Positions 764 to 61,200 of a DNA stretch of 64,000 nt are shown here, piece by piece; positions within the stretch are counted from its first letter, which is position 1; the number at the start of each line of letters is the position of its first letter. The notes under the pieces were generated by a model, which made no database searches, was not told where the DNA came from, and was given only the letters and a program-made list of their open reading frames with translations. The stretch lies in assembly GCF_016695175.1 (NCBI RefSeq), contig NZ_CP068023.1, positions 1,476,501 to 1,540,500 of the forward strand. The letters are read 5' to 3'. The position numbers and the translations under genes are program-made. This DNA comes from Pseudoalteromonas sp. GCY. Its GTDB lineage: Bacteria; Pseudomonadota; Gammaproteobacteria; Enterobacterales; Alteromonadaceae.

Positions 764-3217
764 ATGAACCCAATAAACAAAAAGTCACTCAGCGAAACCG
801 ATATCATCACTAAGTACATTATGCCTGCCATCAAAGAAGCTGGTTGGAATGATATGACGCAAATACGTCAAGAAGTGAAGCTTCGAGATGGCAAAGTGGT
901 TGTACGCGGCACTGTAGCTGGTCGAAAATCTGTTAAGTCAGCAGATATTGTTCTTTACCATAAACCTAGTATGCCGTTAGCTGTTATTGAAGCTAAAGCC
1001 AATAAACACGAAATTGGCAAAGGGATGCAGCAAGGTTTAGATTATGCCAATTTATTAGATGTGCCATTTATATTTGCCAGTAATGGCGACGGTTTCGTAT
1101 TTCACGATAAAACCAATCCAGCACAATTAGAGTCAGAAATAACTCTGAAAGACTTCCCAACACCCGCACAGCTGTGGGATAAATTCTGCACATACAAAGG
1201 CTACCAACCAGCTCAACTACCTATAATCACACAAGATTACTATGATGACGGTTCTGGAAAATCTCCACGCTACTATCAGCTGCAAGCAATAAACAAAACG
1301 GTTGAAGCTGTATCATCAGGCCAAGACCGTATTTTATTGGTCATGGCAACAGGCACGGGTAAAACCTATACGGCTTTTCAAATTATCTGGCGTTTATGGA
1401 AAGCAAAAGCCAAAAAACGAATTTTGTTTTTAGCCGATAGAAATGTATTAGTCGATCAAACTCGTATCAATGACTTTCAGCCTTTTGGTCAAGCGATGAC
1501 TAAAATCACAGGCAGAAAAGTAGACCCTGCATACGAAGTTTATTTAGCACTATACCAAGCACTAACAGGCCCTGAAGAAAGCCAAAAAGCATACAAGCAA
1601 GTTGACCCAAATTTCTTTGACCTCATCATCATCGACGAATGCCACAGAGGTAGTGCATCAGAAGATAGCGCCTGGCGAGAAATACTCGAATACTTCAACT
1701 CTGCGACCCAAGTCGGCCTTACGGCAACACCAAAAGAGACTGACGAAGTATCTAACATCGATTACTTTGGCGAGCCTGTTTATCAATATTCATTAAAACA
1801 AGGTATTGAAGATGGGTTTTTAGCGCCATATAAAGTGGTTCGTGTTGATATAGATGTCGATCTACAAGGTTGGCGACCAACTAAGGGTATGGTCGATAAA
1901 AACGGCCATGTAATTGAAGACCGTATCTATAACCAAAAAGATTTTGACCGTACAATGGTAATAGATGAGCGCACGCAGTTAGTGGCAGAAACCATCACCA
2001 ATTACCTCAAACGAACTGACCCTATGTCTAAAACCATCGTGTTTTGTAACGATATAGATCACGCTGAGCGAATGCGCCGAGCACTTGTTAACTGTAATCC
2101 AGAGCAAGTGGCTAAAAATGATAAGTATGTGATGAAAATCACAGGCGATGACGCAATTGGTAAAGCACAGCTAGACAACTTTATTAACCCTAAAAAGCCT
2201 TACCCTGTTATTGCTACTACCTCTGAATTAATGACAACAGGTGTTGATGCTAAAACCTGTAAGCTAGTTGTACTTGATCAAAACATTCAGTCTATGACTA
2301 AGTTCAAACAGATCATTGGGCGCGGCACTCGCATAGATGATCGATTTGGCAAGCTCTGGTTTACCATCTTAGATTTTAAGAAAGCCACTGAACTATTTGC
2401 CGACGCACGATTCGACGGTATTCCAGAAAAAGTAATAACAACAAAAGCTGATGATATTAACGATCCCGAATCAGACTTTGATGATGTGATTGAAGATACA
2501 GAACCAACCATTGGTGATGAACTTGACGGAATTGGAGAATCAGATGCCGATTATGATTCATCTTCAGATGACGTTGAAACCGATTATCCATCAGGTGAAA
2601 TCGACGGTGATGATTGGGGCGAAGAAGAACAAAAGGTCAATAAATATCACGTCAATGGCGTTTCGGTTAAAAAACTGGGTGAACGTGTTCAATATTACGA
2701 TGAAGACGGCAAGCTCGTTACCGAATCTTTTAAAGATTACACACGTAAAACTCTCACTAAAACCTTTAGTTCCCTTGATGAGTTTGTAAAACGCTGGGAT
2801 GAAGCCGAGCGCAAACAAGCTATTATCGACGAACTTGCAGCTGAAGGTATTATTTGGGAAGTTTTAGAGCAAGAAGTGGGGAAAGAATTAGACCCATTTG
2901 ATATGATCTGCCACGTCGTTTTCGACCAACCGCCTCTAACGCGCAAAGAACGCGCAAACAATGTTAAAAAGCGCAATTACTTCACCAAATATGGCGACCT
3001 AGCCCAAACCGTGCTTGACGAACTGTTAAACAAGTATAGTGATGAGGGCGTTGCAGCCATTGAAAGTAAAGATGCCCTTAAAACAGGAAAAGTGGTAGAG
3101 CTTGGCCGCCCGTTAGAACTAGCCAAAAAAGGCTTCGGCGGAGCAAAGCAATATGAAGCGGCAATTACCGAATTAGAAAAAGCAATTTACGAAGCTATAC
3201 CTGAAAAGCAAGCCTAA
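764..3217 (+). CDS. hsdR: Type I restriction enzyme, R subunit (HsdR)
   Basis: This 817-aa protein is the motor and nuclease subunit of a type I restriction-modification complex, which translocates and cuts DNA lacking the host methyl mark. The N-terminal nuclease domain shows the D...ExK pattern (D61, E76, K78 in AVIEAKA). The helicase core follows with Walker A ATGTGKT (195-201), Walker B DECH (291-294) and motif III GLTATP (318-323). The acidic stretch near residues 565-625 is probably a linker to the C-terminal domain that joins the methylase core. hsdM follows after 91 nt and hsdS overlaps hsdM by 1 nt, so the three form an operon. The frame is intact. Restriction needs a working HsdS, which is interrupted here. 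Confidence 0.96.
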
Positions 3218-3308: not shown

Positions 3309-4784
3309 ATGTCAATTAGTACCGTTATAAAATCGATTCAAGACATCATGCGCAAAGATGCAGGTGTTGATGGTGATGCACAGCGTTTAGGCCAGTTATC
3401 CTGGTTACTCTTCTTAAAGATATTCGATGCACAAGAAGAAGAGCTTGAATTTGAATTAGATGACTATCGCAAGCCAATCCCAGAGCAGTACCTATGGCGT
3501 AACTGGGCAGCGGACTCTGAAGGGATCACAGGTGACGAACTACTTGAGTTTATTAATGACGATTTATTCCCAACGTTAAAAAACTTAATAGCACCAATTG
3601 ATAAAAATCCACGTGGTTTCGTTGTTAGAGAAGCATTTTCTGATGCATTTAACTACATGAAAAACGGTACGTTATTGCGTCAAGTTATCAATAAACTCAA
3701 TGAAGTAGATTTTACCGATTCTAAAGAGCGCCATTTATTTGGTGATATCTATGAGCAAATCTTACGAGACTTGCAAAGCGCGGGTAATGCAGGTGAATTC
3801 TATACCCCGCGTGCGGTAACACGCTTTATGGTAAACCGAATCGACCCTAAGTTAGGCGAACAAGTATTCGACCCTGCTTGTGGTACAGGCGGTTTTCTTG
3901 CTTGCTCGGTAGATCACGTAAAAAATAACTACGTGCAAACAGTTGCCGATCATAAAGCGCTGCAAAGCCAAATTCACGGAGTTGAAAAGAAACAACTACC
4001 GCATTTATTAGCCACGACTAACATGATGCTGCACGGTATTGAAGTACCTGTGCAAGTTAAACATGGCAACACCTTAAACAAACCACTATCCAGCTGGGAC
4101 AGCGACTTCGACGTTATTGTTACCAACCCACCATTCGGTGGTACGGAAGAAGACGGTATTGAAAAGAACTTCCCTGCGGAAATGCAAACCCGTGAAACGG
4201 CTGACTTATTCTTACAGCTCATTGTAGAAGTGTTAAAAGACGGTGGCCGCGCAGCAGTAGTATTACCAGACGGCACATTATTTGGTGAAGGTGTTAAAAC
4301 CAAAATCAAAAAGCTGTTAACCGAAGAGTGTAACCTTCACACTATATTAAGGTTACCTAATGGTGTTTTTAACCCGTATACGGGTATTAAAACTAACATC
4401 CTATTTTTCACTAAAGGCCAACCAACAAAAGATATCTGGTTCTACGAGCACCCATACCCAGAAGGTGTGAAAAACTACTCTAAAACCAAGCCAATGAAAT
4501 TTGAAGAATTTGAAACTGAAATTCAGTGGTGGGGTGAAGAGAGTGATGGTTTTGCCAGCCGCGTTGAAAATGAACAAGCCTGGAAAGTATCTGTTGAAGA
4601 AGTGATCGAACGAAACTTCAACTTAGACATCAAAAACCCACATATCGGTGAGCAAATAAGTCACGATCCAGATGAACTACTTGAGCAATATCAAACGCAG
4701 CAAAAAGATATTCAAAAGCTGCGCGACCAACTAAAAGGTATTCTTGCAGATGCACTTTCATCAAATGACGAGGGTAAAGCTTAA
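3309..4784 (+). CDS. hsdM: Type I modification methylase (HsdM)
   Basis: This 491-aa N6-adenine DNA methyltransferase subunit of the type I complex binds AdoMet and flips the target adenine, with specificity set by HsdS. Visible elements are the N-terminal helical domain (residues 1-155), EFYTPR (163-168), the AdoMet motif DPACGTGGF (188-196) and the catalytic NPPF (273-276). The C-terminal helix (about 455-485) is the usual contact with HsdS. The stop codon TAA overlaps the ATG of hsdS by one base (TTAATG), which suggests translational coupling. The gene looks intact and of normal length. Confidence 0.97.
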   Translation: MSISTVIKSIQDIMRKDAGVDGDAQRLGQLSWLLFLKIFDAQEEELEFELDDYRKPIPEQYLWRNWAADSEGITGDELLEFINDDLFPTLKNLIAPIDKNPRGFVVREAFSDAFNYMKNGTLLRQVINKLNEVDFTDSKERHLFGDIYEQILRDLQSAGNAGEFYTPRAVTRFMVNRIDPKLGEQVFDPACGTGGFLACSVDHVKNNYVQTVADHKALQSQIHGVEKKQLPHLLATTNMMLHGIEVPVQVKHGNTLNKPLSSWDSDFDVIVTNPPFGGTEEDGIEKNFPAEMQTRETADLFLQLIVEVLKDGGRAAVVLPDGTLFGEGVKTKIKKLLTEECNLHTILRLPNGVFNPYTGIKTNILFFTKGQPTKDIWFYEHPYPEGVKNYSKTKPMKFEEFETEIQWWGEESDGFASRVENEQAWKVSVEEVIERNFNLDIKNPHIGEQISHDPDELLEQYQTQQKDIQKLRDQLKGILADALSSNDEGKA

Positions 4785-6061
4785 TGTCTGTGGAAAGCGT
4801 TATTACCGAAAATCTTGATATTTGGACATCGGCAATTAAGACCAAATCTGCATCAGGCAGAGGTAGCTCAAATAAGCTTGAACTTTATGGCATTAAAAAA
4901 CTGAGAGAGCTTATTTTAGAGCTTGCTATTAGAGGAAGGCTTATTCCTCAAGATTCTGAAGATAAGTCAGCTCAAAGTTTGATAGACAGTTCAGTGAAAG
5001 AAAAAGAGCGCTTAATTCAAGAAAAGGTAATTAAAAAGTCCCGTTCGAAGAAACAGATTAATGATGAACATTTTTATGATTACCCAAAAACTTGGGGCAA
5101 GGCCAGAATAGAAGATCTGATAAACGTAATAAATGGCCGTGCTTACAAGAAACAAGAAATGCTTTCAGAGGGCGTACCTATCCTGAGAGTAGGAAACTTA
5201 TTTACTTCAAATGAGTGGTATTTTTCTGATTTACAATTAGAGCCTGAAAAGTATATCGACGATGGTGATTTGATTTACGCATGGTCAGCTTCTTTTGGGC
5301 CATTTATTTGGCAAGGTGGAAAAGTAATTTACCACTATCATATCTGGAAAATGGATATTTTTCTAAACAGTAGTTTGGATAAAAACTTCTCTCGGATATT
5401 TCTGCAAGCGATATCCGAGAGAATTAAAGCTAGTGGAAATGGAATTGCAATGATCCACATGACTAAGGAACGTATGGAAAAAGTAATTCATCCAGTTCCT
5501 CCCATTGAAGAGCAGAAAAACATTGTTGATAAAGTAAATGAACTAATGACTCTTTGCGATCAACTTGAATCTCAAACTGAATCAAGTATTGATGCGCATA
5601 AAACACTGGTTGAAACATTATTAGCGACGCTTACCAACGCCAAAGACGCTGATGAGCTAAACGAAAGCTGGCAACGCATCAGTGAACACTTCGACACCCT
5701 CTTCACCACCGAAGACAGCATCGACCAACTAAAACAAACCATCCTACAACTCGCTGTAATGGGTAAATTAGTAAAACAAGACCCCAACGACGAACCAGCA
5801 TCTGCACTTTTAGAGCGAATAGCAGAAGAAAAAGAACAGCTAATCAAAGATAAGAAAATCAAGAAGCAGAAGGCTCTTGAACCGATATCTGAAGATGACA
5901 AGCCATTCGAGCTACCTAAAGGTTGGGAGTGGTGTCGAGTTTGGGATATCTCTCATACGATTACATCGGGATCAAGAGATTGGGCAAAATATTATTCCGA
6001 TTCGGGTGCTATTTTTGTCACTATGGGGAACCTTTCAAGAGGTAGCTACCAACTAATGTAA
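4784..6061 (+). CDS. hsdS: Type I specificity subunit HsdS, N-terminal part (interrupted by IS)
   Basis: The residual 425-aa product carries the first target-recognition domain (about 100-270, with GVPILRVGNLF and PPIEEQKNIV), the central conserved helical region (about 310-385, DQLKQTILQLAVMGKLV) and the beginning of the second domain (LPKGWEWCRV onward). An IS inserted after codon 424 adds one Met codon and a TAA. The full gene would have been 4784-6056 joined to 7250-7701, about 574 aa, and the join is in frame (...SYQL-RLNNIRYV...). Loss of the second domain should abolish the original bipartite recognition. Truncated HsdS proteins that keep one recognition domain and the central helices can work as dimers in some type I systems, so residual activity is possible but unproven. 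Confidence 0.93.
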   Translation: MSVESVITENLDIWTSAIKTKSASGRGSSNKLELYGIKKLRELILELAIRGRLIPQDSEDKSAQSLIDSSVKEKERLIQEKVIKKSRSKKQINDEHFYDYPKTWGKARIEDLINVINGRAYKKQEMLSEGVPILRVGNLFTSNEWYFSDLQLEPEKYIDDGDLIYAWSASFGPFIWQGGKVIYHYHIWKMDIFLNSSLDKNFSRIFLQAISERIKASGNGIAMIHMTKERMEKVIHPVPPIEEQKNIVDKVNELMTLCDQLESQTESSIDAHKTLVETLLATLTNAKDADELNESWQRISEHFDTLFTTEDSIDQLKQTILQLAVMGKLVKQDPNDEPASALLERIAEEKEQLIKDKKIKKQKALEPISEDDKPFELPKGWEWCRVWDISHTITSGSRDWAKYYSDSGAIFVTMGNLSRGSYQLM

Positions 6062-6096
6062 CTCCACCCAATTTAGTACAGCTATTTCGTAGAATT

Positions 6097-6921
6097 TTAT
6101 GCAGCCTCAAGGTAACCAACCGGTGTCATATCACCTAGTGAATCATGAGGTCGCTCATAATTATAAATATCTAACCACTCATCAGTGATTTCACGTACTT
6201 CTTGCAGTGACTCAAACAAGTATAAATCTAGCACTTCTTCACGGTAACTCCGATTAAACCTTTCCACAAAACCATTTTGGTAAGGACTGCCTGGCTCTAT
6301 AAATTCCAACTTGATGTCATTTTTCATTGCCCAATCTTCGAGTGCCGTTGAAGTAAATTCTGGACCATTATCCACTCTAATCTGCTTTGGTTTTCCTCGC
6401 CAAGCAATAATTTGTTGTAGCGTTCTAATAACTCGTTCAGAAGTTAAGCTTGTATCGACCTCAATCGCCAGTGCTTGTCGGTTGAAATCATCCAGCACAT
6501 TCAGTGTTCTAAAACGATGTCCATAGCTTAATGCGTCACTCATAAAGTCCATTGACCACGATTCATTATATTGTGTCGGTGCACTTAATGGTTCAGGTGT
6601 TCTTGTTGGAACACGGCGCTTCCCCTTACGTCTCAAGTTTAGTTTTAGCATGTTGTAAACGCGTTCAACACGCTTTTTATTCCACGGCTTACCTTTATTG
6701 CGAAGCCTTTTGAATAGCTTAGGCAGCCCCCACCTAGGATGGCGCTCTACCAGCGCAAGTAATGCGTCGATAACTTCATCATCTGACGGCCGTTTATGTT
6801 TGTAATAAAAAACTGAGCGGCTTAGCCCTGCCACTTCACAAGCAAATGCGACGCTGACGTTAAATTGAGCTCTTAAATGCTCTACCCAAGCTCTGCGCCT
6901 ACTTGTTTTTACAGCTTTTTT
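6097..6921 (-). CDS. IS3-family transposase OrfB (DDE integrase)
   Basis: This is the catalytic part of the IS transposase. The independent frame from the ATG at 6834 gives 245 aa with a DDE triad: D96 (SWSMDF), D155 (RVDNGPEF) and E191 (NGFVERFNRSY), with 35 residues between the last two as in IS3 elements. The frame is open upstream to the A-run at 6916-6921, so the natural product is most likely an OrfAB fusion made by -1 slippage at AAAAAAG near the end of orfA. I place the start of the OrfB part at the slip site. Nothing in it appears broken, so the element may be active. Confidence 0.93.
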   Translation of the reverse strand, partial: KKAVKTSRRRAWVEHLRAQFNVSVAFACEVAGLSRSVFYYKHKRPSDDEVIDALLALVERHPRWGLPKLFKRLRNKGKPWNKKRVERVYNMLKLNLRRKGKRRVPTRTPEPLSAPTQYNESWSMDFMSDALSYGHRFRTLNVLDDFNRQALAIEVDTSLTSERVIRTLQQIIAWRGKPKQIRVDNGPEFTSTALEDWAMKNDIKLEFIEPGSPYQNGFVERFNRSYREEVLDLYLFESLQEVREITDEWLDIYNYERPHDSLGDMTPVGYLEAA

Positions 6922-7178
6922 GCGATGATATCCTCAAGCATCGAGTGCTTTAGGCTAAGCGTTGCAAACATATCTTTTAGCTTACGGTTTTCTTCTTCAA
7001 GCTCTTTAAGTCGCTTAACGTCTGAAGCTTCCATCCCGCCATATTTTGAGCGCCATTTATAAAACGTACTTTGGCCGATACCATGTTTGCGGCAGATTTC
7101 TGGAACAGGAATACCCGCCTCAGCTTCTTTGATCATGCTGACAATTTGGGTTTCGGTGAACTTGCTTTTTCTCATCAT
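6909..7178 (-). CDS. IS3-family transposase OrfA (helix-turn-helix)
   Basis: This 89-aa protein begins MMRKSKFTETQIVSMIKEAE and contains a helix-turn-helix (about 10-45, with ICRKHGIGQSTFYKWRSKYGGM) followed by a leucine-rich coiled coil (LKELEEENRKLKDMF). It binds the terminal repeats and dimerises. The sequence type (KYGGMEASDVKRLKELEEEN) is characteristic of IS407-group OrfA. The end of the gene, ...GCAAAAAAGCTGTAA on the minus strand, contains the slippery A-run used to make OrfAB. Met at 7178 or 7175 could be the start. Confidence 0.93.
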   Translation of the reverse strand: MMRKSKFTETQIVSMIKEAEAGIPVPEICRKHGIGQSTFYKWRSKYGGMEASDVKRLKELEEENRKLKDMFATLSLKHSMLEDIIAKKL

Positions 7179-7249
7179 AAATTTTCCTATTTTAGTTAAT
7201 GGAAAATTCTACTTATAAACTGTTTCATTTTTTGGGGGAGTTACACTAA

Positions 7250-7701
7250 GGCTTAATAATATACGTTATGTTTCACCGCCTTCTGAAGGTGAAGGTAAAA
7301 GAACTAAGCTTAAGGAGAATGACCTATTAATTTCTATTACGGGAGATGTTGGAAATCTAGGACGTATTCCGCGAAACTTTGGAGAAGCTTATATTAATCA
7401 GCATACAGCTATGCTCAGATTCATGAATGAATGTCAAAATAGGTTTTTCCCAGAGTTTATGAGGTCGCCTCTTGCAAAATATCAATTTGATGCACCTCAA
7501 AGAGGAATAAAGAATAGTTTCCGCTTAGGGGATGTTGGTGAAATGCTCGTTCCCGTTCCTCCAAAAGAAGAACAATTCCGGATTGTAAGACAAATAGAAC
7601 AGATGATGGATATTTGTTGCTTGTTGAAAGAAAAAATAAATAAAGGGCAAGCCATCAAAAACTATTTGTCGGATTCAATCTCATCTTCATTAGTAAACTA
7701 G
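7250..7701 (+). pseudogene. hsdS: HsdS C-terminal fragment, cut off by the IS
   Basis: The frame resumes right after the right CTAA duplication with RLNNIRYVSPPSEGEGKR and continues through the rest of the second target-recognition domain (DLLISITGDVGNLGRI, PRNFGEAYINQHTAMLRF) to the C-terminal conserved segment (VPPKEEQFRIVRQIEQMMDIC). It ends at TAG 7699-7701. The first internal ATG is at 7411, and a 96-aa product from there would lack most of the recognition domain. It is almost surely non-functional alone. It is the 3' exon-like remainder of the gene beginning at 4784. Confidence 0.92.
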
Positions 7702-7723: not shown

Positions 7724-7838
7724 GATGAAACTTATTAACGAAAAATATCGCGCATTAAAACCTTCCTTGGATTATTTAACTGATGAAGTTGTTATTGCAT
7801 AAGTACGGAAGAAAACACAACAAAACAGAGAATAAGGA
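7724..7838 (+). pseudogene. Remnant start of a deleted gene (possibly a reverse-transcriptase-like protein)
   Basis: A good ribosome-binding site (AAGGAC) precedes ATG 7724, which begins a 25-codon frame, MKLINEKYRALKPSLDYLTD..., that stops at TAA 7799-7801. Reading on past the stop gives RKKTQQNRE and a TAA. The opening is protein-like, and I recall similar openings (EKYR.LKPS.D.LTDEVV..QAWKK) in large RT-domain proteins, but I could not verify this. The simplest reading is that a gene between hsdS and the DUF6361 gene lost nearly all of its body and kept its start and perhaps its last codons. It could also be a short peptide or chance. Confidence 0.4.
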
Positions 7839-7844
7839 TAAATA

Positions 7845-9083
7845 GTGAGTGATTTAGGATGGGTTGATTTTTCCTCAGAAGACAGGGAAAGGGTCAGGCA
7901 CGTGATGGCGATGATGCGAGAGCCTGGAACCTTAGATGAATTAGGTATAGGACAAATTAGAGACGCTTTTGCTGACTTGCTATTTCCTGGTATTTCTACC
8001 ATTCAAACCCGTGCCAAGTATTTTATTACGGTTCCACGTATTTTACGCGATTATTATGAGCAGTGCTCCGCCAATAAACGGAAAGCGCCTTCTATTGAGT
8101 CTTATTTGAAAGACGCAGAAAACAACGTAGCAAAGCGATTGACTGAAGTTCATGGTGATGACGAAACAGGCATTATTGGCCGCACCCAAATTGATAAGGG
8201 AGGCGTTGCCAGAAGACCGTCTTCTGTTTACTGGAACGGGTTACGGCAACTTGGCATTATCGACACACAAAGTTCTTTAGCTGAATTCTGCAGGCACTAT
8301 GGCAATGTTAAAACTAAACCAGATTCAGCGATAAGCGAGTTTGGTGAAGATGATACCAGCAGCCTTATTACCAAGCAGATAGTTCATTTACCCAAAGGCC
8401 ACTCAGGTAACTGGCAAGAAGACCTCACATTAAATTTAAGTGTCAATGAAGCTAGGTTTTTAGTTAATAAAATCAAGAATGCCAAAAATCTAGAACATAG
8501 CGTGCTTGGGCAACTTTACTTACATGGTTTAACGGATGAAGCCTTGAGTTTAAATGATAAATTTGTACGTGGGTTTACCCAGCTTCAAGCTTTTTTAAAA
8601 AAGCAGGGTGAGGTTTCTGCTATATGCAAATCAAGGCTTGAAGCCGCTGAAGCTTTCAGCTTAGCAATGGAAGGCGCTCACCTTCGATATAATATTGTGC
8701 TGGCTAGGAATAATGAGTTTGATGAAAAAGTAGCTGAGTACGAAAGTGATTATCATAATTGGGCTGAAATAGCTAAAAAGTCCTTACATGAAGACAGTGT
8801 AGATAAATGGTTAGATATCGCTGAAATTAAAGCAATCAATCCTAAGACAAAGACTTTTATTCAAGAGTTCATCAAGCAAGTACAAACAGGCGCTTCTCTC
8901 AAAGAAATAGATACTTTGGTTGAAAGTCAGGCTAAAAATAACAAAAAGAAACGCTCGTTATTATATAAAAAGCTTACTCATCAAGGTTGGGTTGGAATTC
9001 GCCGATTGGATTACAGGTGGAGCGCAGCGCGACCAATTTTAGCCGATATACAACAAGGATTAGAAAATGCTAAAAGCAGATGA
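7845..9083 (+). CDS. DUF6361-like protein, first gene of the three-gene cassette
   Basis: This 412-aa protein of unknown function starts at GTG 7845 behind AATAAGGATAA. Its N-terminus, LGWVDFSSEDRERV...LDELGIGQIRDAFADLLFPG, then STIQTRAKYF and PRILRDYY, fits what I recall of DUF6361. The pattern recalls a protein that meets DNA or a partner through its N-terminal domain, but no catalytic motif is visible. The rest is mainly charged helix. There is no signal peptide or membrane segment. The stop lies 17 nt inside the next gene, so the three genes are translationally coupled. The location beside a type I restriction system and the PLD and helicase partners suggest a role in DNA defence. This is inference. 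Confidence 0.7.
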   Translation: MSDLGWVDFSSEDRERVRHVMAMMREPGTLDELGIGQIRDAFADLLFPGISTIQTRAKYFITVPRILRDYYEQCSANKRKAPSIESYLKDAENNVAKRLTEVHGDDETGIIGRTQIDKGGVARRPSSVYWNGLRQLGIIDTQSSLAEFCRHYGNVKTKPDSAISEFGEDDTSSLITKQIVHLPKGHSGNWQEDLTLNLSVNEARFLVNKIKNAKNLEHSVLGQLYLHGLTDEALSLNDKFVRGFTQLQAFLKKQGEVSAICKSRLEAAEAFSLAMEGAHLRYNIVLARNNEFDEKVAEYESDYHNWAEIAKKSLHEDSVDKWLDIAEIKAINPKTKTFIQEFIKQVQTGASLKEIDTLVESQAKNNKKKRSLLYKKLTHQGWVGIRRLDYRWSAARPILADIQQGLENAKSR

Positions 9084-10905
9084 AAACCGCGTTGACTATG
9101 GTGAGCAGTTAACACCTCCCTTTATTGATGGTGTGCAATATGAGTTTGATGCCGCAATTGCGACAACATATTCACTAGATTTAGACACGTTATTAGCTGC
9201 CCCTATTGCGCTTTGTTTTAATGAAACACTTGAGGGCGATCTCCGAGGTGAGAAACTTGCTTTATTAGAAGCGTTTGGGCAATTAAAAGGACGACTTCGT
9301 GTTTTTTATCAAAAGGGCAATATTAAAGTTCCAACACAGTACAACAAGTTGTTCACACTATTGGAGCCGTGTTTAAGGGCGGTAGTGCCAAGTGGTGGAG
9401 AGCACGCTTCCTTTCACTCTAAAGTATGGTTAATTCGTTATAAGCAATCAGATGGGAAAAAGAGAGCTAATGTAATTTATCGACTTATTGTTTTATCTCG
9501 CAACCTTACCTTTGATAGAAGCTGGGATATAGCAGCTTCGCTTGATGGAAAATTAACGCAAGCTAAGGTAACGGAATTGGGCACCGAAAGCTGGGCTGAT
9601 TTTTTTCTTAACCTACTTGATGAACAGAATGATGCTGAACTAAAAAAGACCTTCAAAAAAGAGCTTCCTAAAATTAGCTGGTCGATAAGCTATGGGCGTA
9701 ATCCATTGTTATTACCAGGTGGCGGCAAGTTTAATAAACCACTTGATTTATACAATAGTAATGACTCAATGCTGGTTGTTTCACCGTTTATAAAAGATGC
9801 AGCTGGACAAGTGAAGGCACTTGATTGGTTGGCGACTAAAGCTGACACTAAAAGAATATTAGTCAGTCGCGCTACTGAGCTAAACGAGATTGGGCAAGAG
9901 AAGTTAAAGTCTTGGCAGTGTTACTCAATAAATGATGCCATTGTTGATGGTGCAGAAAGAGCTGGATTACCGGAGGAGTCCCATGATCTTCATGCCAAAC
10001 TGATTATCACTCAACGCGGTGGCACAAGCCATTGGCATTTAGGGTCAGCAAATGCGACAACCGCTGCACTTGGTACAGAGAAAAAACTACCTAGAAATGA
10101 AGAATTCATGCTGAGGTTTACGGGTAACACAGCTCAAATCGGCCCACAACGTATTTTAGATACATGGCTAAGTGATAAAGAAGGCGAAGGCTTAATTGTG
10201 CCGCATGAGTTTTCAGCCCTACAAAATGAAGCGGAATCGAAAGATTTTGATTTCAGGTCGGTATCTTTTCCCATTATTAATGCGGATTGGCAGTTGGAAG
10301 CTCGATACAATAGTAAAACCGAACTGTATGAGTTAACTCTGTCTCATAATATGGACGATGAGTCTTTGACTCGTATTCTAGCCCTTTGCGATATTGAGGT
10401 AGGCCAGCTAGGTATTGCTGGTGCAAATAAGTGTATATCGTCTGAGCTTCATTGGTCGGGTGTTGAGTTGAGCGCTATTAGCGCGTTGATACCTGTGTGT
10501 TTGACGTCTAAATGTGAAAGTGACTCACAGCAAAAGAGCTTAATTATACAAGCAAACCTTCATATTGAGGGTGGCGATACTCGCGATAAAAGGGTTTTGT
10601 CTGAGTTGCTAGATAATGAAGATAAATTACTGAACTACGTCCGGCTATTATTAAATCCTTATAGCACTAAAGAAGAGTGGCTTGATATTACAACAAGAGC
10701 AGCTGGATTAAGTGACGGTAGCGGTGCGAGCCTGTTTGAAAGTGCACCGATATATGAACAGTTAATGTTAGCCGCAGCTCGAAACCCGTCGGCACTCAAT
10801 AGAATTCAAGCTTTACTTGAGAGATTAGAACAAACAGAAGTTCAAATCCCAGAGCAATTTTTGTCACTATGGCAGCATTTTGAACAAGAGGTGATATATG
10901 AATGA
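9067..10905 (+). CDS. Phospholipase D-like protein, second gene of the cassette
   Basis: This 612-aa protein has two PLD-type active-site halves: H117-S-K119 (ASFHSKVWLIRY) with SRN 144-146, and H309-A-K311 (DLHAKLIITQ) with GSAN 326-329. The H-x-K...(S/G)-x-N pattern is that of the PLD superfamily, whose bacterial members include nucleases such as BfiI and Nuc and the DrmC component of DISARM. The C-terminal 280 residues are of unknown fold. There is no signal peptide, so it should act in the cytoplasm, most likely on nucleic acid. It overlaps the upstream gene by 17 nt and the downstream helicase by 8 nt. Nuclease activity is inferred from the motif. Confidence 0.82.
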   Translation: MLKADENRVDYGEQLTPPFIDGVQYEFDAAIATTYSLDLDTLLAAPIALCFNETLEGDLRGEKLALLEAFGQLKGRLRVFYQKGNIKVPTQYNKLFTLLEPCLRAVVPSGGEHASFHSKVWLIRYKQSDGKKRANVIYRLIVLSRNLTFDRSWDIAASLDGKLTQAKVTELGTESWADFFLNLLDEQNDAELKKTFKKELPKISWSISYGRNPLLLPGGGKFNKPLDLYNSNDSMLVVSPFIKDAAGQVKALDWLATKADTKRILVSRATELNEIGQEKLKSWQCYSINDAIVDGAERAGLPEESHDLHAKLIITQRGGTSHWHLGSANATTAALGTEKKLPRNEEFMLRFTGNTAQIGPQRILDTWLSDKEGEGLIVPHEFSALQNEAESKDFDFRSVSFPIINADWQLEARYNSKTELYELTLSHNMDDESLTRILALCDIEVGQLGIAGANKCISSELHWSGVELSAISALIPVCLTSKCESDSQQKSLIIQANLHIEGGDTRDKRVLSELLDNEDKLLNYVRLLLNPYSTKEEWLDITTRAAGLSDGSGASLFESAPIYEQLMLAAARNPSALNRIQALLERLEQTEVQIPEQFLSLWQHFEQEVIYE

Positions 10906-13900
10906 TGACGTAATAGCGTTATTGAACCAGTCGCTTTCGAAACTCAAAGATTTTCAATTAGCAACGGTACACCAAGTGATGAGCAATTTTGTCGATAGCC
11001 GTCACTCAGGGAGAGTATTAGTTGCCGATGAGGTTGGTTTAGGTAAAACCGTTGTTGCAAAAGGCGTAATAGCAGAAATGCTCAAGGCAAGGTTGAATCA
11101 ATCACCTTTTAAGCCTTTAAGGGTAACGTATATCTGCTCTAACCTAACACTTGCTAATGAGAACATAAGGAAACTAGCTGTATTTGAAGGGAATGAGCAC
11201 GAAGAGTATGTATCAGAGCCTTCATTTAGCCGTTTGACTGAATTAGCGATAAAGGATAACCAAAATGATAATGACACTGGTGAGTTATTAGAAGTCTGCT
11301 CCCTCACTCCTTCTACTTCATTTACTTTAACCCAAGGCGATGGCACTCACTGGGAACGCTTTATTATTTATCAATTGCTTTGTGAGCATGACAGTTTATC
11401 AAAGTATAAATGTAAGCTAAGTAAGTTGTTTCGTGGTAAATGTGGTAGAGATACTTGGAAGAATAATCAATATTGGTTCGACAAAAATAACTCTCTTGAT
11501 AAATGTATATTGCGCTCGTTTCATCAACAACTTAACGCTCAATCAGACTATATCGAAAGTGACTGGGAGATAGCGCAAGGCAGTAGCTGGCTTTCAATTA
11601 TTGAAATGGTATGCACTGATCAAGTTAAGTGTGAACACCCAAATAGATTACGCTCTTATTTAAGAAGAGTGCTTGCTAGGTGTTGTGTTCAAAACCTAAA
11701 GTCTGATTTATTTATATTAGATGAGTTTCAGAGGTTTAATAGCCTTCTCGACACCAATGAAGACAATGAATTATCAGTTATTGCCAGAGGGATTTTTTCT
11801 AAAGAGTCGGCAGCTAAATTGTTATTGCTCTCAGCTACGCCATTTAAAGCCATGTCTAAAGTTGATGAAGAAGAAACCCAAACGGCGCATGTTGATGAAT
11901 TAAGGTATTTACTTAATTTTTTAAGTAAAAAAGATCATAACTTTTTAAGTCAATATGAATACAACAGAGAGAAGCTTCATAGCGAAATTATTAGCCTGCG
12001 TGATCCGAGTAAATGCCCAAGCAGTTTGATTTCAACTCATAAGGACAGTATTGAAAACTCACTTAGTTCATACATTTGCCGCACAGAGCGAGCACAGATC
12101 GTCAATAAGGCAGACTCAATAGTTTGCTTTAGAAAAGGCAGTGAACAAGCTACCGAGTGTTTAGCAAAGTTTGATAGTAATGAAATTCTGGCATTTAAAG
12201 AGTTAGTTCAAATAGCAGAAGAGCTGAATAAGGTTAGTAAGAATAGCCACTCTAGCTATTTATTAGAGTATCAAAAGTCGGCCCCTTGGGCTTTATCATT
12301 TATGAATGGTTATCAATTTAAAAGTCATATTGATGATTCATTACAAAAACACGCACCTTTATCAAAGGTTATAAAGCAGTCGAAAATGAGTTGGCTGTCA
12401 CGAGATTTAATCCAGTCATATAAATTGAATTTGGCTAAACAAGGCTCGAACGCAAGGTTCAAGGCTGTGATTGATACTTTTTTTGACGGCAATGGTGAAG
12501 AGTTGCTGTGGGTTCCACCGTCAAACCCTTATTACCCTTTAGAAGGAAGTTTTAAAAATCAACAAGGCTTTAGTAAATCGCTGCTGTTTTCTGCATGGGC
12601 AATGGTGCCAAGGGCGCTAAGCGGTTTGATATCATATGAAGCTGAACGCAGGTTGCTTGAAGGTAGAAGAGGCGTAACTAAGGAGTATTACCGCTCTGAA
12701 AAGAAAAAACATGTACAAAAGATCAAGTTTGATGGTAAGTCAAACCTTGTTGCCTGGTCTTACATCTACCCTAGCAGAACACTTGCAAATATTGACTTTT
12801 TTGATGATGGCAAAACTCTCGATGAGCTTGTAAAGGATGTGAGCAAAAAGATTAAAAGCCTGTTTTGGTCAAAGCTCAAGCCCTATGAAAACAAAGGAAA
12901 GAAGTCTAACACACACTGGTATGCCGTAGCACCAATACTTTTAGATATGCTAAATGGATACACAGATGGCGTAGATGACTGGCAGCTTAAGTTTAAAAAT
13001 AGATTTTCGGATGGTAAAAATAAGGGTCGCCTTGAAAGTATTCGGCACTTATTCAATTTGATTCAAAAAGGTGAGTTAGGAAAGCTCCCTAAAGACCTTT
13101 TTAACTATTTAGCGCAACTTGCAATTTCAGGCCCTGCTGTATGTATCCTTCGTTCGTTAGCAGGACAAGATTCACATCATCACCTAGTTGATATAAGTGA
13201 AAGCGCATTAGGCTTTGTTAGTTTGTTTAATAAACCTGAGTCAGAAAGAGCCATTAAAAAACGCTATTACAAGGTCCCTTATTGGCAAGCTGTTATTAAT
13301 TATTGCGCAGACGGTAACTTACAAGCGGTGGTTGATGAGTATTTTCATTTATTAATTGGCTCTGGGCAAAATAGTAGCGAAGCGTTATCAAAATTACATA
13401 GTGTGTTAAATACCAATACAGTTTCTGTAGGTTGTCACTTTCACGAAGATATTGCCCTCAAGAAGAGTGAAGGTTCGTTAGAAGAAAAGTCCACATTAAG
13501 ATGTCATTATGCAGTTCCCTTGGGTAACCAAAAAATTACGGATGAAAAAGGCATGGTAAGGGTGTCTCACGTTCGAGATGCGTTCAACTCACCGTTTAGA
13601 CCCTTTGTGCTGAATTCAACATCTATTGGGCAGGAGGGGCTGGATTTTCATTGGTATTGCAGTCGTATAGTACATTGGAACTTGCCATCAAACCCAATTG
13701 ACCTTGAACAACGAGAAGGACGTGTAAACCGTTATAAGTCGTTAGTTGTTCGTAGGCGACTAGTCGAGAGGTTTAAAGATGAAGTTAACTCAAGCTATCA
13801 ACACTCTTGGGATAAGTTGTTTGAGTATGCTGATCAACACACAAAAAATGAAAGGCTTAGTGATTTGGAACCTTATTGGCACTTGTCTTCAGGTAGTGCT

Positions 13901-14143
13901 CAAATAGAGCGCATTGTGCCTTTGATGCCAATGAGCAAAGACTTAATTAAGTTAAATGAATCTTTGAAGGTGCTTTCGCTATATCGGTTAGCATTTGGGC
14001 AGCCAAGACAAGAAGAATTAATAGACAACCTTTTAGAACGAAGCTTTACAGATGAAGAAATTGAGAACATTAAGCATAAGTTGGTGGTAAATCTGTCACC
14101 TCTAGTTCATTCTAAGAAAACTAAGACAAAGCTTGCTTCATAA
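10898..14143 (+). CDS. SNF2/superfamily 2 helicase, third gene of the cassette
   Basis: This large helicase of 1081 aa has Walker A DEVGLGKT (44-51), Walker B DEFQ (near 275, LFILDEFQRF), motif III LLLSATPFK (near 309) and, far downstream, motif V/VI elements: STSIGQEGLDFH and LEQREGRVNRYKS (near 936). About 500 residues lie between the two RecA-like lobes, a large insertion. DEVGLGKT and the QREGRVNR box place it near SNF2-like helicases of the kind found in DISARM and other defence loci, with DEFQ replacing DEAH. It starts within the last codons of the PLD gene (ATGAATGA). It probably acts with that protein and the DUF6361 protein on invading DNA. The substrate is unknown. Confidence 0.85.
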   Translation: MNDDVIALLNQSLSKLKDFQLATVHQVMSNFVDSRHSGRVLVADEVGLGKTVVAKGVIAEMLKARLNQSPFKPLRVTYICSNLTLANENIRKLAVFEGNEHEEYVSEPSFSRLTELAIKDNQNDNDTGELLEVCSLTPSTSFTLTQGDGTHWERFIIYQLLCEHDSLSKYKCKLSKLFRGKCGRDTWKNNQYWFDKNNSLDKCILRSFHQQLNAQSDYIESDWEIAQGSSWLSIIEMVCTDQVKCEHPNRLRSYLRRVLARCCVQNLKSDLFILDEFQRFNSLLDTNEDNELSVIARGIFSKESAAKLLLLSATPFKAMSKVDEEETQTAHVDELRYLLNFLSKKDHNFLSQYEYNREKLHSEIISLRDPSKCPSSLISTHKDSIENSLSSYICRTERAQIVNKADSIVCFRKGSEQATECLAKFDSNEILAFKELVQIAEELNKVSKNSHSSYLLEYQKSAPWALSFMNGYQFKSHIDDSLQKHAPLSKVIKQSKMSWLSRDLIQSYKLNLAKQGSNARFKAVIDTFFDGNGEELLWVPPSNPYYPLEGSFKNQQGFSKSLLFSAWAMVPRALSGLISYEAERRLLEGRRGVTKEYYRSEKKKHVQKIKFDGKSNLVAWSYIYPSRTLANIDFFDDGKTLDELVKDVSKKIKSLFWSKLKPYENKGKKSNTHWYAVAPILLDMLNGYTDGVDDWQLKFKNRFSDGKNKGRLESIRHLFNLIQKGELGKLPKDLFNYLAQLAISGPAVCILRSLAGQDSHHHLVDISESALGFVSLFNKPESERAIKKRYYKVPYWQAVINYCADGNLQAVVDEYFHLLIGSGQNSSEALSKLHSVLNTNTVSVGCHFHEDIALKKSEGSLEEKSTLRCHYAVPLGNQKITDEKGMVRVSHVRDAFNSPFRPFVLNSTSIGQEGLDFHWYCSRIVHWNLPSNPIDLEQREGRVNRYKSLVVRRRLVERFKDEVNSSYQHSWDKLFEYADQHTKNERLSDLEPYWHLSSGSAQIERIVPLMPMSKDLIKLNESLKVLSLYRLAFGQPRQEELIDNLLERSFTDEEIENIKHKLVVNLSPLVHSKKTKTKLAS

Positions 14144-49954: not shown

Positions 49955-50311
49955 TGGTGGAGCTGGGGGGATTTGAACCCCCGTCCGGAAAGCGTCGACC
50001 TTCGGTCCTACATGTTTAGTATCGTCTTTTGGTTAACCTTTAAATCTCGGACGAACACGATAAGTAAAGGCGAGGCCGCTTAGTTTTAGCCCTTCAACCC
50101 CGGCCTGGGTTTCCGTAGCGATCTTGTGTAGGGTGACACTCCAGAACCAGATCCACAAGAATATCATGGAGGAGTGCTAGCGGGCTATTATGCCGCTAGA
50201 GCGTAGTTATCGTCGTTTGCGATTACTTTAAATACGGCTTTTTTACGAGGCCAGCCGCACCTCGACATGCACCTTAGGCTTCTTGAATCCCGTCGAATCC
50301 TAATCAGCCCC
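49955..50311 (-). ncRNA. ssrA: Transfer-messenger RNA (tmRNA, SsrA)
   Basis: The gene is on the minus strand. The 5' end is GGGGCTGATTAGGATTCGAC (position 50311 inward) and the 3' end is CCCCCAGCTCCACCA (to 49955), forming the alanine-type acceptor stem with a T-loop GATTTGAACCCCC-like on the plus strand. The coding part encodes the degradation tag ANDDNYALAA followed by two stops (50220 down to 50185). Tag and ends match gammaproteobacterial tmRNAs. It releases stalled ribosomes. SmpB is not in this window. The length of 357 nt is normal. Confidence 0.97.
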
Positions 50312-51203: not shown

Positions 51204-52355
51204 TTACGCTCCGCGCAACCAGTTGCGTAGTCTATCTTTAAGTTGGCTAAGGTCGTCTTCGCAGATCAGGCCAATTTCTAGCGCTTTGGCGCGTAGCCTT
51301 TCTGAGGTTCTAATGCCTTGATAGCTCACTAGTAGGCCTCTTGCTTGTACGCCGCCAAATAGCTCGCTGAGGGAATCAAGTTTATAAATCACTTGGTTGC
51401 CTTCCCCTTTACTAAACTTTTTGGTTTTGCATTCAATGAGGTGAAGCTTATTGTTGGCGAGCGCCACAATATCTAGCTCGTTATTGACATAGCCTTGCCC
51501 AACGCGACGTTTAATCGCAACGCCTTGGGCGACATCTTGTAAAATGGTGAGTTCTTTTTTTAGGCTGAGGAGCGTGGCGTAAACATATTCTTCTAGCCAG
51601 CCGCCGTTGGCAAAAAAGCGAGCGCCTTCATTAGCAAACTTTAATTTGTCGTCTTGTCTTGTGGCGACGTTAGCCTCTTCTAAATCGTCAATCAGTGTTT
51701 GCAAACTTGGGCTATTCATTTGGCTGCGACTCAAAGGCTCACTGATAAGTTCGTTATCTTCGCTACTGGCTGCGAGGTAGTTGAGCTGGGCGAGGGCATG
51801 GCTATAATCCGTTTGACTGGTTGCCCATTTTGCGCCGAGCTGGCGATAGCGAATATCAACGATACCCTCATTTGCAATTTCGGTGATATCGCCGTCGATG
51901 AGGTTAAAAAAGTCGCGTATCTTTAACTTATCGGCAAGGATGGTGTTAGCTCGCTCTGTTGGTACAAGCCAGTGAAGCTCGTCGCGTTCGGGTTCAATGA
52001 TAAAACATTCTATTGGATAGGCGCGGATCACCTCATACATCGCAAGTAAGTGTTGGCGGTCGCCGCAACTGGCATTAAACACAAATTGGGTATCTGGTTG
52101 TTCACTAATCAGGGTATCAATGAGCTGGTGGAAGCTGTCGATTAAGGTGTCGCTATCTCGGCTGGTGGGAATAAAGGCGTGATGTACTTTTACCCCTCTT
52201 GGCCCCAACACTCTTTTAATATCTTCAAGGTTTTGTTGTTGTTGAGATTCTATTAAATAGAGTATTTCATCCGAGTCGATATTGTGGTCGAGTACAGGCG
52301 TAAGCGTGTTAATAAAGTTAGTATCGATAAAACTAAGGTGTACGTGCTTTGTCAT
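51204..52355 (-). CDS. CARF-domain nuclease, DUF1887 (Card1/Can2-like)
   Basis: This 383-aa protein has an N-terminal CARF-like Rossmann domain (1-150), with the ligand-loop segment NASCGDRQ (94-101). A middle region follows, then a C-terminal PD-(D/E)XK nuclease: GGWLEEYV (251-258), D295 (NELDIVAL) and E308-C-K310 (HLIECKTKK). The same layout is known from Vibrio VC1899 and the CRISPR effector Card1/Can2, which bind cyclic tetra-adenylate and then cut nucleic acid. No CRISPR array, Cas10 or other cas gene is present, so its activating signal is unknown. The frame is complete. Confidence 0.85.
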   Translation of the reverse strand: MTKHVHLSFIDTNFINTLTPVLDHNIDSDEILYLIESQQQQNLEDIKRVLGPRGVKVHHAFIPTSRDSDTLIDSFHQLIDTLISEQPDTQFVFNASCGDRQHLLAMYEVIRAYPIECFIIEPERDELHWLVPTERANTILADKLKIRDFFNLIDGDITEIANEGIVDIRYRQLGAKWATSQTDYSHALAQLNYLAASSEDNELISEPLSRSQMNSPSLQTLIDDLEEANVATRQDDKLKFANEGARFFANGGWLEEYVYATLLSLKKELTILQDVAQGVAIKRRVGQGYVNNELDIVALANNKLHLIECKTKKFSKGEGNQVIYKLDSLSELFGGVQARGLLVSYQGIRTSERLRAKALEIGLICEDDLSQLKDRLRNWLRGA

Positions 52356-57156: not shown

Positions 57157-58263
57157 ATGAATGTAAAACAAAGTGTTATTGCTATGAGCTGTGCTGTTTT
57201 ACTGGCAGGTTGCCAAAGTGTGTCAGCCACTGGCACACGCACGCTAGCAACTTTTAGTGTAGATAATACTCAGTGCTACGACCGCAAGGCGCAGCCTAGT
57301 TATTTTGCCGTTGATTCCCATCACCATTTTCAGCCATTTCGGGGAGATGCAGTCCCGTTTGATAAGCTCGTTACTTGGGCAGAGCGTGCGGGAGTGGTGT
57401 TTATCAACGTTTATGGCATTGGTCAAACCTACGAGCGAAAGCCTGATTGCTTTGGTGAGCGTGGGTGCTACAGCCAGTTGATTTCACCCAGCATTCAAAA
57501 TGACTTTAAAAATGCGAGCAATTATCTTAAATATGGCGCAGATAACGTGCATATTACCTTGTCTATGACCTTTGCTGACTTGCACAAACCAGAGACTATT
57601 TTGCCAAAAATGACACTACTTGAAGACGAGTTTGGTGACTTATTTCGTTGGATGGGAGAAGTGAATTTAGTCAAAGCGGCGCATTTTGGTAACGGCCATC
57701 AAGCGGTAGATAAAGAGACGATCGCCAAATGGCAGCCATTTATGGCTGTGCTAAAAGAAAAGCGTATTCCGCTAGCTCTGCACGCTGACTTAGGCGATAA
57801 CAACACGCCACTTAAATACTTACCTTTGCTTGATGAAGTGTTAAAGCGCTATCCTGATAACGATATCATTTGGATGCACATGGGAGTCTCAAAAGAGTTA
57901 AACCAAATTGATCCAGAGCTGCATATAAACACCATGGAGCGGTTATTCTCCCAATATAAAAATCTAAAGGCCGATCTGTCATGGCGGATTTTGTACGACT
58001 ATTACTTTAGCGACCCGAAAATTCAGGCGCAGTATGTTGAATTTATTAATGCCCATGCTGAGCGCTTTTTGCCGGGCAGTGATTTCGTCGCCAGTAAAAA
58101 TAAACGTTTTTTCGATTATTTAGAGGAAGTCGATATCAATAGTCGAATTCTCGCCGAACTTGACGACGATGCCTTTCGCCAGATCGCCTTAGGTCAAAAC
58201 TATTTTTCGCTGTTAGATTTACCTTATCGCGCGCCAGAGATCTGTGTTAAAGCGTCTCCTTGA
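57157..58263 (+). CDS. Amidohydrolase-family lipoprotein
   Basis: This 368-aa protein has a lipoprotein signal (CAVLLAGC, Cys19) and the amidohydrolase-2 fold: metal site VDSHHHFQPF (about 51-60), LALHADLGDN, and IIWMHMGVS near 250, then the catalytic-region sequence LPGSDFVASKN. Such enzymes act on carboxylates or esters. The lipid anchor places this one in the periplasm. The 3' end overlaps the convergent SNF2 gene by 17 nt. The substrate is unknown. ATG 57157 has GGAGAC at 57136-57141. Confidence 0.85.
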   Translation: MNVKQSVIAMSCAVLLAGCQSVSATGTRTLATFSVDNTQCYDRKAQPSYFAVDSHHHFQPFRGDAVPFDKLVTWAERAGVVFINVYGIGQTYERKPDCFGERGCYSQLISPSIQNDFKNASNYLKYGADNVHITLSMTFADLHKPETILPKMTLLEDEFGDLFRWMGEVNLVKAAHFGNGHQAVDKETIAKWQPFMAVLKEKRIPLALHADLGDNNTPLKYLPLLDEVLKRYPDNDIIWMHMGVSKELNQIDPELHINTMERLFSQYKNLKADLSWRILYDYYFSDPKIQAQYVEFINAHAERFLPGSDFVASKNKRFFDYLEEVDINSRILAELDDDAFRQIALGQNYFSLLDLPYRAPEICVKASP

Positions 58264-61200
58264 GCATGGATAGTACATCGTTTACGTCTAGCTTCATCAC
58301 TTTATCGGTGTTCGCGAGCAATTGATCCGCGAGGTCTTTTTTATGGTGATGGAGCTCAACAATTTGTTCTTCAATCGTGCCTTTGGCAATTAAGCGATAA
58401 ATAGTAACGGGGCGTGTTTGTCCCATTCTATGTGCGCGGTCTGACGCTTGCTCTTCAACCGCAGGATTCCACCAAGGATCCATGTGAATAACATAATCTG
58501 CTGCGGTAAGGTTCAAACCAGAGCCTCCGGCTTTGAGGCTAATCAAAAATACCTCGCCTTCACCTTTTTGAAAGGCATTCACGGCCTGCTGACGTGTTTT
58601 GCTTGGCGTGCTGCCATCTAAATATTGAAACCGGATCCCGCGTTTTTCCAAGCGACTTTTGATAAGTTGCAAATGGCCTACAAACTGACTGAATATAAGC
58701 GCCTTGTGATTGTTCTCTTGTAGCTCGGTCAGAAGCTCATCCAATGCCGCCAATTTCGAGCTGGTTATCTGACTTTCTGCCATTAACAGTTTTGGATGAC
58801 AACAGGCTTGGCGCAAGCGGGTTAATGCTGCCAACATTTTAAAGCGCTGTTCATTGGCACTGTCTTGCTGCGTGGACTGCGAAATTTCGTCAATGGCGTT
58901 TTGGCGCAGCGCTTCGTAAAAGGTTTGTTCTTCTTGGCTCAATTGAATTGGTACATTGATCTCAGTGCGTGGTGGCAATTCGGTTAATACCTGATGCTTC
59001 ATGCGGCGCAGAATAAAAGGCCGGATCAGGTGCTTGAGGCCTTTACGGGCACGGTGTGCCGCTAGTTTATCTTCATTGGCGTTTTCAATGGGAGCGGAAA
59101 ACTTTTCGCTAAAGCGTTTGAGGTTACCGAGCAACCCAGGGTTTACAAAACGAAAGAGTGACCAAAGCTCGGTGAGGTTATTTTCTATTGGGGTCCCTGT
59201 GGTGATCAGCTTAAACTTGCCTTTGAGCAAGCAGGCGGCTTGAGTACGTTTTGCTAAAGGATTTTTTAGCGCTTGGGCTTCATCGGCGACAATGGTTTCA
59301 AAAGCGATAGGTTTTAAGATATCAACTTCGCGCTGTAGCAGGCCATAGCTTAATATCACACAATCCAGTGGTTGCAAGTTGTTCAGCATCTCAGCTCTGG
59401 CATCAGAATGTGGATAGTCAGAAAAGAGTTTCACCGACAAGGTTGGAGCGAACTTTTGGATTTCTTGTTGCCAGTTGAAGCAGACCGATGTTGGCGCGAT
59501 GACAAGCGTCGGGCCAACATTGGCACGGGCCAATATCATCGCCAGCGCTTGGATGGTTTTACCCAATCCCATATCATCGGCAAGGCATGCACCTGCACCC
59601 CAATGGGCAAGTCGCATTGCCCAGTCAAATCCGGCCTGCTGATAGTCGCGCAGCTCGGCTTGTAATGTTGAAGGAAGCGTTGGAGTCAATGCAACGGCTT
59701 GCTGCATTTTTTCGTTTTGCTCTTCCCTGGCTGGCAAGGTTTTCATCCGCATTCCGGTGGTAGCTTCTGCAATTAAAGGTGCAGCTAGCGGGTGAAACTT
59801 TCCGCCCTCGGTCGCGTTATTGAGCTGGTCAAGTTGCGCTTTTAACTCACTTGAAAGGGCGAGTACTTGCTCACCGTCCAGCGCAATAAAGCGGCCATTG
59901 CTGGTGGCAACCATTTTGAGAAGCTGTTTAAGTTCGATAACTTGGTCATTACTTACTTGTAGCTCGCCGGTCATGTCGAACCATTCATTTTTCTTACTCA
60001 TGGCAAGTTGCAAATGTTGGCTCTCGAGCTTGCTACTGAGCTTAACCTTTTTGCCTTTAGGCCATCTGAGTTTGAGCGCCATAGGACAAGGCTCTTGATT
60101 AATCACCAGCTCAAGTTCTTGCAGTACCTCTAGCGCTTCATCCATTTCGGCTAAACTTAAGCGATTATCCGTCATCTCCAAAAATAGCGGGCAGTGTGTA
60201 TCTAACTCATCCAATCTTTGTTGCTCAAGTAACAAGTTCCGGGTGGTGGATAAACGCTTACCATCGATCTCGGCGCTGACAGTGGCAATACCGTGCCCGG
60301 GATGAAAAATCGGCCCTTTTTCGCCAAAGGGCATGACCACGCAGTGAAAGTCGAGGCCTTGATGATAAGGTTGAATGTTAATAACAAGCGCCGATTGCGC
60401 CTCAATACTATCCAGCCCAGTATCTATATCAGCTAAATCAGACTGTACATTAAGATAAGGTGCGATGGCTTTAATACTCGACAGCACTTTTTGTTTTGCA
60501 CTGGCAGGCACGGTTAATCCAGATTCACCAATAATATCAGCGACCTGTATATGTGACTGGTTAAACACAATAAACTCGTAGTGATGTTCAGCTTGCTGAA
60601 TAAATGAGTAGGTTTGCGGTTGACCAAAATAGCTGGGTAAATTAGGAATAGAGAGTAGCAGATCGTCGCCATGTTGACGGATGTGTAACTCGGGAGATTT
60701 CTCGGCAATGGTAATGGCTTGTTTTAAGTCGTCTTCATGGTATAGGTTGGTGGCGCCGACTGCGGCTTTTAACGCGGGAATTCCAGCAAGGGCGTAGTCC
60801 GCACGACTATTGTAGCCATAACCTGACTGTGGTGCGATGGCATCGATCAGCTTTTTATCAGACTGGCTGATATAACTAAATTGCTCAGGGTGCTGTTTCA
60901 GTTGTTTGCAGGAAATTGGCTTCCCTTTTCCCCAGCCTGTTTTACCCCGTTTTTGCTCGCGTGCTAAAAACTCAATATCAAAGCGACCTTGCCTAATTTG
61001 CCAAATCAGGCGAAATTGTTCGTCAACTTCTTGGCTGGTATTTGCGTTCGGGTTGAGCGCAATAAGCTTGTCCAGTGCCAGATCCCACGCCGTCTTTTTG
61101 GCAACAAGATGACTAACATTAAGCTCGGGATTAAACGCAAGCGGATATTGCTCACCGTGCATTGCCAGCATCAACTGCTTTGCGAGCCCAGCAAAAAGAG

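Follow-up and report, generated by a model that had tools for sequence, protein, structure and literature searches.

Azaca is a named bacterial anti-phage system of three proteins (ZacA, ZacB, and ZacC) and is reportedly owed to Millman et al. in 2022. In Dpd, another system with a phospholipase D (PLD) nuclease and a helicase, the PLD nuclease is DpdK. The Zac gene names are those of Azaca, as the literature confirms. Here we describe three overlapping genes at positions 7845–14143 of a 64,000-nt stretch of the Pseudoalteromonas sp. GCY genome (contig NZ_CP068023.1, positions 1,476,501 to 1,540,500; the whole stretch is called the window below) and identify them as Azaca with a probability of about 0.95. 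An earlier note on this DNA, made from the sequence alone, had proposed them as an undescribed defence system. That claim of novelty falls, as the system already has a name and an existing library of defence genes finds the trio.

In the excerpts of the sources cited here, Azaca is listed with Mokosh I and Mokosh II for a PLD-like domain, with reference to Millman et al. 2022 (PMC10952713), and appears through ZacC among the defence systems that have a superfamily 1 or superfamily 2 (SF1/SF2) helicase (PMC12278908). It is one of the systems sought in Escherichia coli (PMC10121019), and it is present in island hotspots of Pseudomonas (PMC12629846) and in a Stenotrophomonas defence island (PMC11680222). 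The excerpt of a 2026 review gives the mechanism of Azaca as unknown and cites Doron 2018 and Millman 2022 for the group in which it places the system (PMC12926258). A literature search on DUF6361 or ZacABC found no mention of either. Among the literature matches listed, the term "Zac system" did not occur, and none found with the names ZacA, ZacB, or ZacC concerned phage defence.

Identity and co-occurrence of the three genes

The three genes lie on the forward strand. The first, zacA (7845–9083), has a GTG start and codes for a DUF6361 protein of 412 aa; zacB (9067–10905) codes for a predicted PLD-type nuclease of 612 aa with two HxK...N halves; and zacC (10898–14143) codes for a protein of 1081 aa that is predicted to be an SF2 helicase or translocase of the RapA/SNF2-like kind. 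Open reading frame (ORF) calling gave overlaps of 17 nt between zacA and zacB and 8 nt between zacB and zacC, so that the lengths and overlaps in the earlier note were exact. The identification as Azaca is based on PADLOC models that matched the proteins nearly end to end: ZacA with an E value of 8.2e-102 (residues 2–407 of 412), ZacB with 2.3e-142 (residues 1–608), and ZacC with 2.1e-283 and 941.6 bits (residues 10–1069). The likeness of the first protein to DUF6361 was also confirmed, as the Pfam family PF19888 matches residues 1–401 with 103 bits, where the cut-off is 25. This protein had been thought to lack a counterpart in any defence family, and comparison with profile hidden Markov models, proposed as a check at the time, instead assigned it to ZacA. 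In NCBIfam, ZacA and ZacB had no match at an E value of 0.1, and ZacC matched helicase models only, far below their cut-offs. In comparison with Azaca, each of the three proteins fits its PADLOC model, gene order and overlaps are like those of relatives, and the setting is a defence island; there is no substantial difference, although identity between the window ZacA and the aligned relatives does not exceed 48%. An anti-phage role of the trio is supported by this family identity.

ZacA is rare, and where it occurs its partners are usually beside it. The ZacA model matched five of the 398 genomes from the phylum, this one included, and the Pfam DUF6361 model matched the identical five. In all five, a protein right next to ZacA matches ZacB strongly (391 to 556 bits). 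Five more genomes from the phylum have weak ZacB matches only (41 to 55 bits), which were taken as other PLD proteins. The system is sporadic, as ZacA was present in 2 of 395 genomes of the family, namely this one and one from another genus; it was not found in the 20 genomes listed from the same genus. No match was obtained by megablast against E. coli genomes.

A scan of genome_contigs identified 418 ZacA relatives. The best 80 of these (L015–L094), together with L095, make up a set of 81 loci, and co-occurrence was therefore measured on closer relatives. The best 80 loci span many bacterial phyla and include one from a Methanobrevibacter metagenome-assembled genome. In A-B-C order beside ZacA, ZacB is present at 78 of the 81 loci and ZacC at 72, which answers the question, raised with the original proposal, of whether the three genes travel together. 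At seven of the nine loci without ZacC (L034, L041, L055, L056, L066, L086, and L095) the DNA ends before zacC would be visible, and in L034 and L055 the sequence stops directly after zacA. ORF starts in the relatives were set at the first possible position, so overlaps there are upper bounds. Pairwise distances among the 59 loci with all three proteins aligned had correlations, uncorrected for host phylogeny, of 0.968 (A-B), 0.982 (A-C), and 0.970 (B-C), and the highest A-B value in 1000 label permutations was 0.165. Plasmids also carry the genes: 41 of 72,556 plasmid records have a ZacA match, 36 of them with a query coverage of 80% or more, and the two plasmids inspected, from a member of the Bacteroidota and a haloarchaeon, encode a DUF6361 protein, a phospholipase D family protein, and a helicase in that order. 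Together these patterns are evidence for joint inheritance of zacA, zacB, and zacC across many bacterial phyla and as far as a haloarchaeal plasmid. Phages were rejected as common carriers of ZacA, as a scan of viral_contigs with the ZacA alignment gave eight pattern matches and no confirmed relatives.

Several observations weigh against the reading as Azaca. At L026 (Shewanella frigidimarina, 10001–12615) a short ZacA is followed by a short ZacC, with room for ZacB and none present, and this Azaca looks decayed. L091 has a partial ZacB and no ZacC despite room for it, and L052 has a short ZacB and no ZacC within the remaining 1.0 kb. Genes that are split or of odd length, which may reflect decay, frameshift, or assembly error, include ZacB in L033, L094, and L042 and ZacC in L059, L094, and L046. 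In the window, ZacB matched no Pfam family at an E value of 0.01, so that its PLD assignment depends on motifs and family membership, and the Pfam helicase matches of ZacC are weak (Helicase_C, the top match, 26.9 bits with a cut-off of 23.5; ResIII, 23.2 bits with 22.5; DEAD, 23.2 bits with 26).

Conserved residues, proposed mechanism, and alternatives

Alignments of 77 ZacA, 68 ZacB (the window and 67 loci), and 65 ZacC sequences were used to identify conserved residues; filters for length, score, or contig end omitted 5, 14, and 17 of the 81 loci, respectively. The first half of ZacB has H117-x-K119 with N146, and the second has H309-x-K311 with N329. Residues H117, K119, R139, N146, W153, D154, N344, and E346 are present in all 68 sequences, and H309, K311, S327, and N329 in 67, the exception being L053, which has a gap in the second half. 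The two PLD-type halves read from the sequence in the earlier note therefore hold, with the six H, K, and N residues kept in 67 of 68. PLDc_2 matched 42 of the 68 members and RE_NgoFVII matched 12. Among solved structures, the ZacB family profile matched 7clg (2.9e-6), annotated as a "putative helicase", and gave weak matches to two restriction endonucleases, NgoVII (4rct, 0.017) and 2c1l (0.027), in each case through the second half; we take 2c1l to be of the BfiI type.

The helicase motifs noted in the third protein stood up equally well. In the window ZacC these are DEVGLGKT (44–51), DEFQ (275–278), and QREGRxxR (938–945), and across the family motifs I (DEVGLGKT), II (DEFQ), III (SATP), V (TSxGQEGLDFH), and VI (QREGRxxR) retain their core positions in 64 or 65 of 65 sequences. 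The closest solved relatives by sequence are RapA proteins (top E value 1.9e-5). Columns that are invariant in all 77 ZacA sequences include W6, D31, G34, R39, F47, P48, S51, T52, Y129, W130, K367, and R391. The conserved ZacB and ZacC residues are all kept in the window proteins, and the operon therefore looks functional. These alignments also point to residues for mutation.

We propose that ZacC, a predicted RapA/SNF2-like SF2 translocase, would load on or travel along invading DNA (or RNA), and that ZacB would join its two HxK...N halves into one active site and cut the invading nucleic acid. ZacA would serve as an adaptor or sensor that either aims the ZacB nuclease or restrains it. There is no methylase in the unit, and self would therefore probably be spared through the state of the nucleic acid (ends, or replication or repair intermediates) and not through a sequence mark. 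We give this reading, in which phage nucleic acid is attacked directly, about even odds; the substrate, the sensing, and the role of ZacA are the parts that we infer. By sequence, no credible relative of ZacA outside Azaca was identified in Pfam or the PDB: the top PDB match has an E value of 0.078, and in Pfam all 77 members match DUF6361 while 23 other families were each matched by one member, with a top E value of 0.013. A more specific proposal is that DUF6361/ZacA forms a separate type of sensor, by which a methylase-free translocase-nuclease separates invading from own nucleic acid by structural state. This proposal is tentative, and we consider it on the unlikely side.

The strongest alternative is abortive infection, in which ZacC or ZacA would sense infection and unspecific cleavage by ZacB would kill or arrest the infected cell, in place of a selective cut of phage nucleic acid. 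The lack of a self-marking enzyme in the unit is consistent with this, as is Hachiman, a helicase-nuclease pair described in the excerpt of PMC12278908 as freeing its nuclease upon sensing DNA damage. Against it, a table in PMC10855318 files Azaca under nuclease activity and nucleic-acid degradation and not under abortive infection, a grouping made by its authors. We regard abortive infection as a serious contender, with the balance tilted somewhat against it.

A second alternative is that the trio and the adjoining type I restriction-modification (RM) locus form one larger system. The two are neighbours in the window, a Haliscomenobacter plasmid has zacABC placed within hsdM-hsdS...hsdR, and L029 has hsdR, hsdM, and hsdS just upstream of the zac genes in the same direction. 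Type I RM relatives (E values up to 1e-8), however, are near zac at only 9 of the 81 loci, a lower bound given the many short contigs, and more than one subunit is present in only three (L029, L035, and L050). In the window itself hsdS is interrupted while zacABC is open. A joint system is thus very improbable.

Least credible is a DISARM-like or Dpd-like system or its remnant, built from a PLD nuclease and an SNF2-type helicase: both systems are accompanied by PLD nucleases (excerpt of PMC12458937) and ZacC is weakly similar to PDC-M27C (61.4 bits), DrmD (53.7), and DpdE (49.2) in PADLOC and to the NCBIfam DpdE and DrmD models (61–62 bits, with cut-offs of 500 and 610), but the ZacC model itself gives 941.6 bits, the trio has no methylase and is preserved unchanged over many phyla, and MZB/DUF1998 has no match in the genome, in which DrmA and DpdA were not searched for. 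These similarities may reflect a deep ancestry that ZacC shares with the DISARM and Dpd helicases.

Membership in DISARM and in Dpd was rejected. DISARM likewise has a PLD nuclease adjoining an SF2 helicase, with DrmD weakly resembling ZacC. It differs in that DrmB (MZB/DUF1998, PF09369) had no match in the whole genome, where 8 of 14 control genomes did, and in the methylase, as the trio has none and the neighbouring hsdM fits type I RM models; the earlier exclusion of DISARM on these grounds was correct. Dpd shares a PLD nuclease (excerpt of PMC12458937) and an SNF2-type helicase, DpdE, that is weakly like ZacC, but ZacC, at 61.4 bits, is far under the DpdE cut-off of 500. No 7-deazaguanine genes were among the nine scanned proteins of this stretch, and the genome was not searched for them. 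Mokosh shares a helicase and a PLD-like domain, and is listed beside Azaca for that domain in the excerpt of PMC10952713, but no Mokosh model was among the matches listed for the trio (25 of 27 matches in the case of ZacC).

Genomic island and neighbouring genes

Four relatives (G817, G788, G811, and G792) were compared with the window at this site only. By blastn, G817 and G788, both close relatives, are collinear with the window up to position 227 and again from 14334 (G817) or 15810 (G788). This delimits a strain-variable segment, from 228 to about 14333, that neither relative has at this site, and the genomic island of the earlier note is thus confirmed. G817 and G788 hold other ORFs there, and the site is therefore variable and not simply unoccupied. 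For G811, the match on the right side begins at 14749 and the 39.9 kb taken gave no left match; G792 matches only around the peptidase gene of the right flank. The right flank also has a rhomboid gene (Pfam), and we take the peptidase to be of the M13 type. On the left flank, a 775-aa ORF is presumably dnaX-like and another YbaB-like.

The Azaca operon shares this small, strain-variable defence island with the type I RM locus, and the general picture of a nuclease, a helicase, and a protein of unknown role in one operon within such an island was right. The trio is a known system, and its place in a defence island is nothing unusual. The RM locus comprises hsdR (764–3217, PADLOC REase_I, 1435 bits), hsdM (3309–4784, MTase_I, 5.6e-243), and the 5' part of an interrupted hsdS (4784–6061, Specificity_I, 2.2e-158), all on the forward strand. 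The earlier note had recognized this neighbour but made no mention of the insertion sequence (IS) that interrupts hsdS at about 6057–7246 on the reverse strand. The IS has inverted ends, an rve integrase core, and two ORFs (6097–6834 and 6909–7178), and the CTAA on either side was taken, on visual inspection, for a target duplication of 4 bp. A 1190-bp copy with 97% identity is present in G811. A forward ORF 3' of the IS (7411–7701) was taken, by position and look, as the 3' part of hsdS. Between it and zacA, a stub at 7725–7801 (forward) looks to us like the start of a gene, perhaps a reverse transcriptase.

As RM relatives are near zac at only 9 of 81 loci, the RM locus is a neighbour and not a constant part, and it was rejected as a constant partner of Azaca. 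The Haliscomenobacter plasmid pHALHY01 (L120, 5510–19134) has the order hsdM-hsdS-zacA-zacB-zacC-small ORF-hsdR, which resembles the window neighbourhood and is a minority pattern over the 81 loci.

Proximity to known defence genes, the other check proposed with the original claim, was assessed with PADLOC at 1e-30. Of 296 neighbour ORFs, 120 were sampled, and those used were the first 85 of the sample by order of locus. These matched 79 models, and the matches listed include Mokosh, BREX, Druantia, DISARM, Shango, Hma, AbiE, and type I and type IIG RM. The control, 61 ORFs taken from this genome and a single relative and so not from the same hosts, matched 27 models, among which DpdE, ZorD, and DrmD (SNF2-type helicases), a CARF nuclease/Csx1, and PDC-S35 are listed. 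Defence models do occur among the neighbours, and the contrast is qualitative; the control holds a CARF nuclease too.

Other features in and near the window were also observed. A gene at 51204–52355 (reverse) encodes a putative Card1-like CARF-PD-(D/E)xK nuclease (PADLOC, 1.1e-111; Pfam Card1_endonuc, 8.8e-36) and lies about 0.9 kb from the transfer-messenger RNA gene (49955–50311). No match to a Cas1 model was found in this genome, where Cas10 and arrays were not searched for, and the nuclease is perhaps an orphan CRISPR-type effector. At 58247–62452 (reverse), a 1401-aa SNF2-type helicase (SNF2-rel_dom, 220 bits) is probably the control protein that matched the DpdE and ZorD models. In G811, a cluster on the reverse strand (L115, 5649–17411) encodes TnsA, a Mu-type transposase (TnsB-like), TniB (TnsC-like), TniQ, Csy2 (within a 683-aa protein), Csy3, and Csy4. 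By gene content, it is a predicted type I-F CRISPR-associated transposon of a known kind, some 23–35 kb from the peptidase gene.

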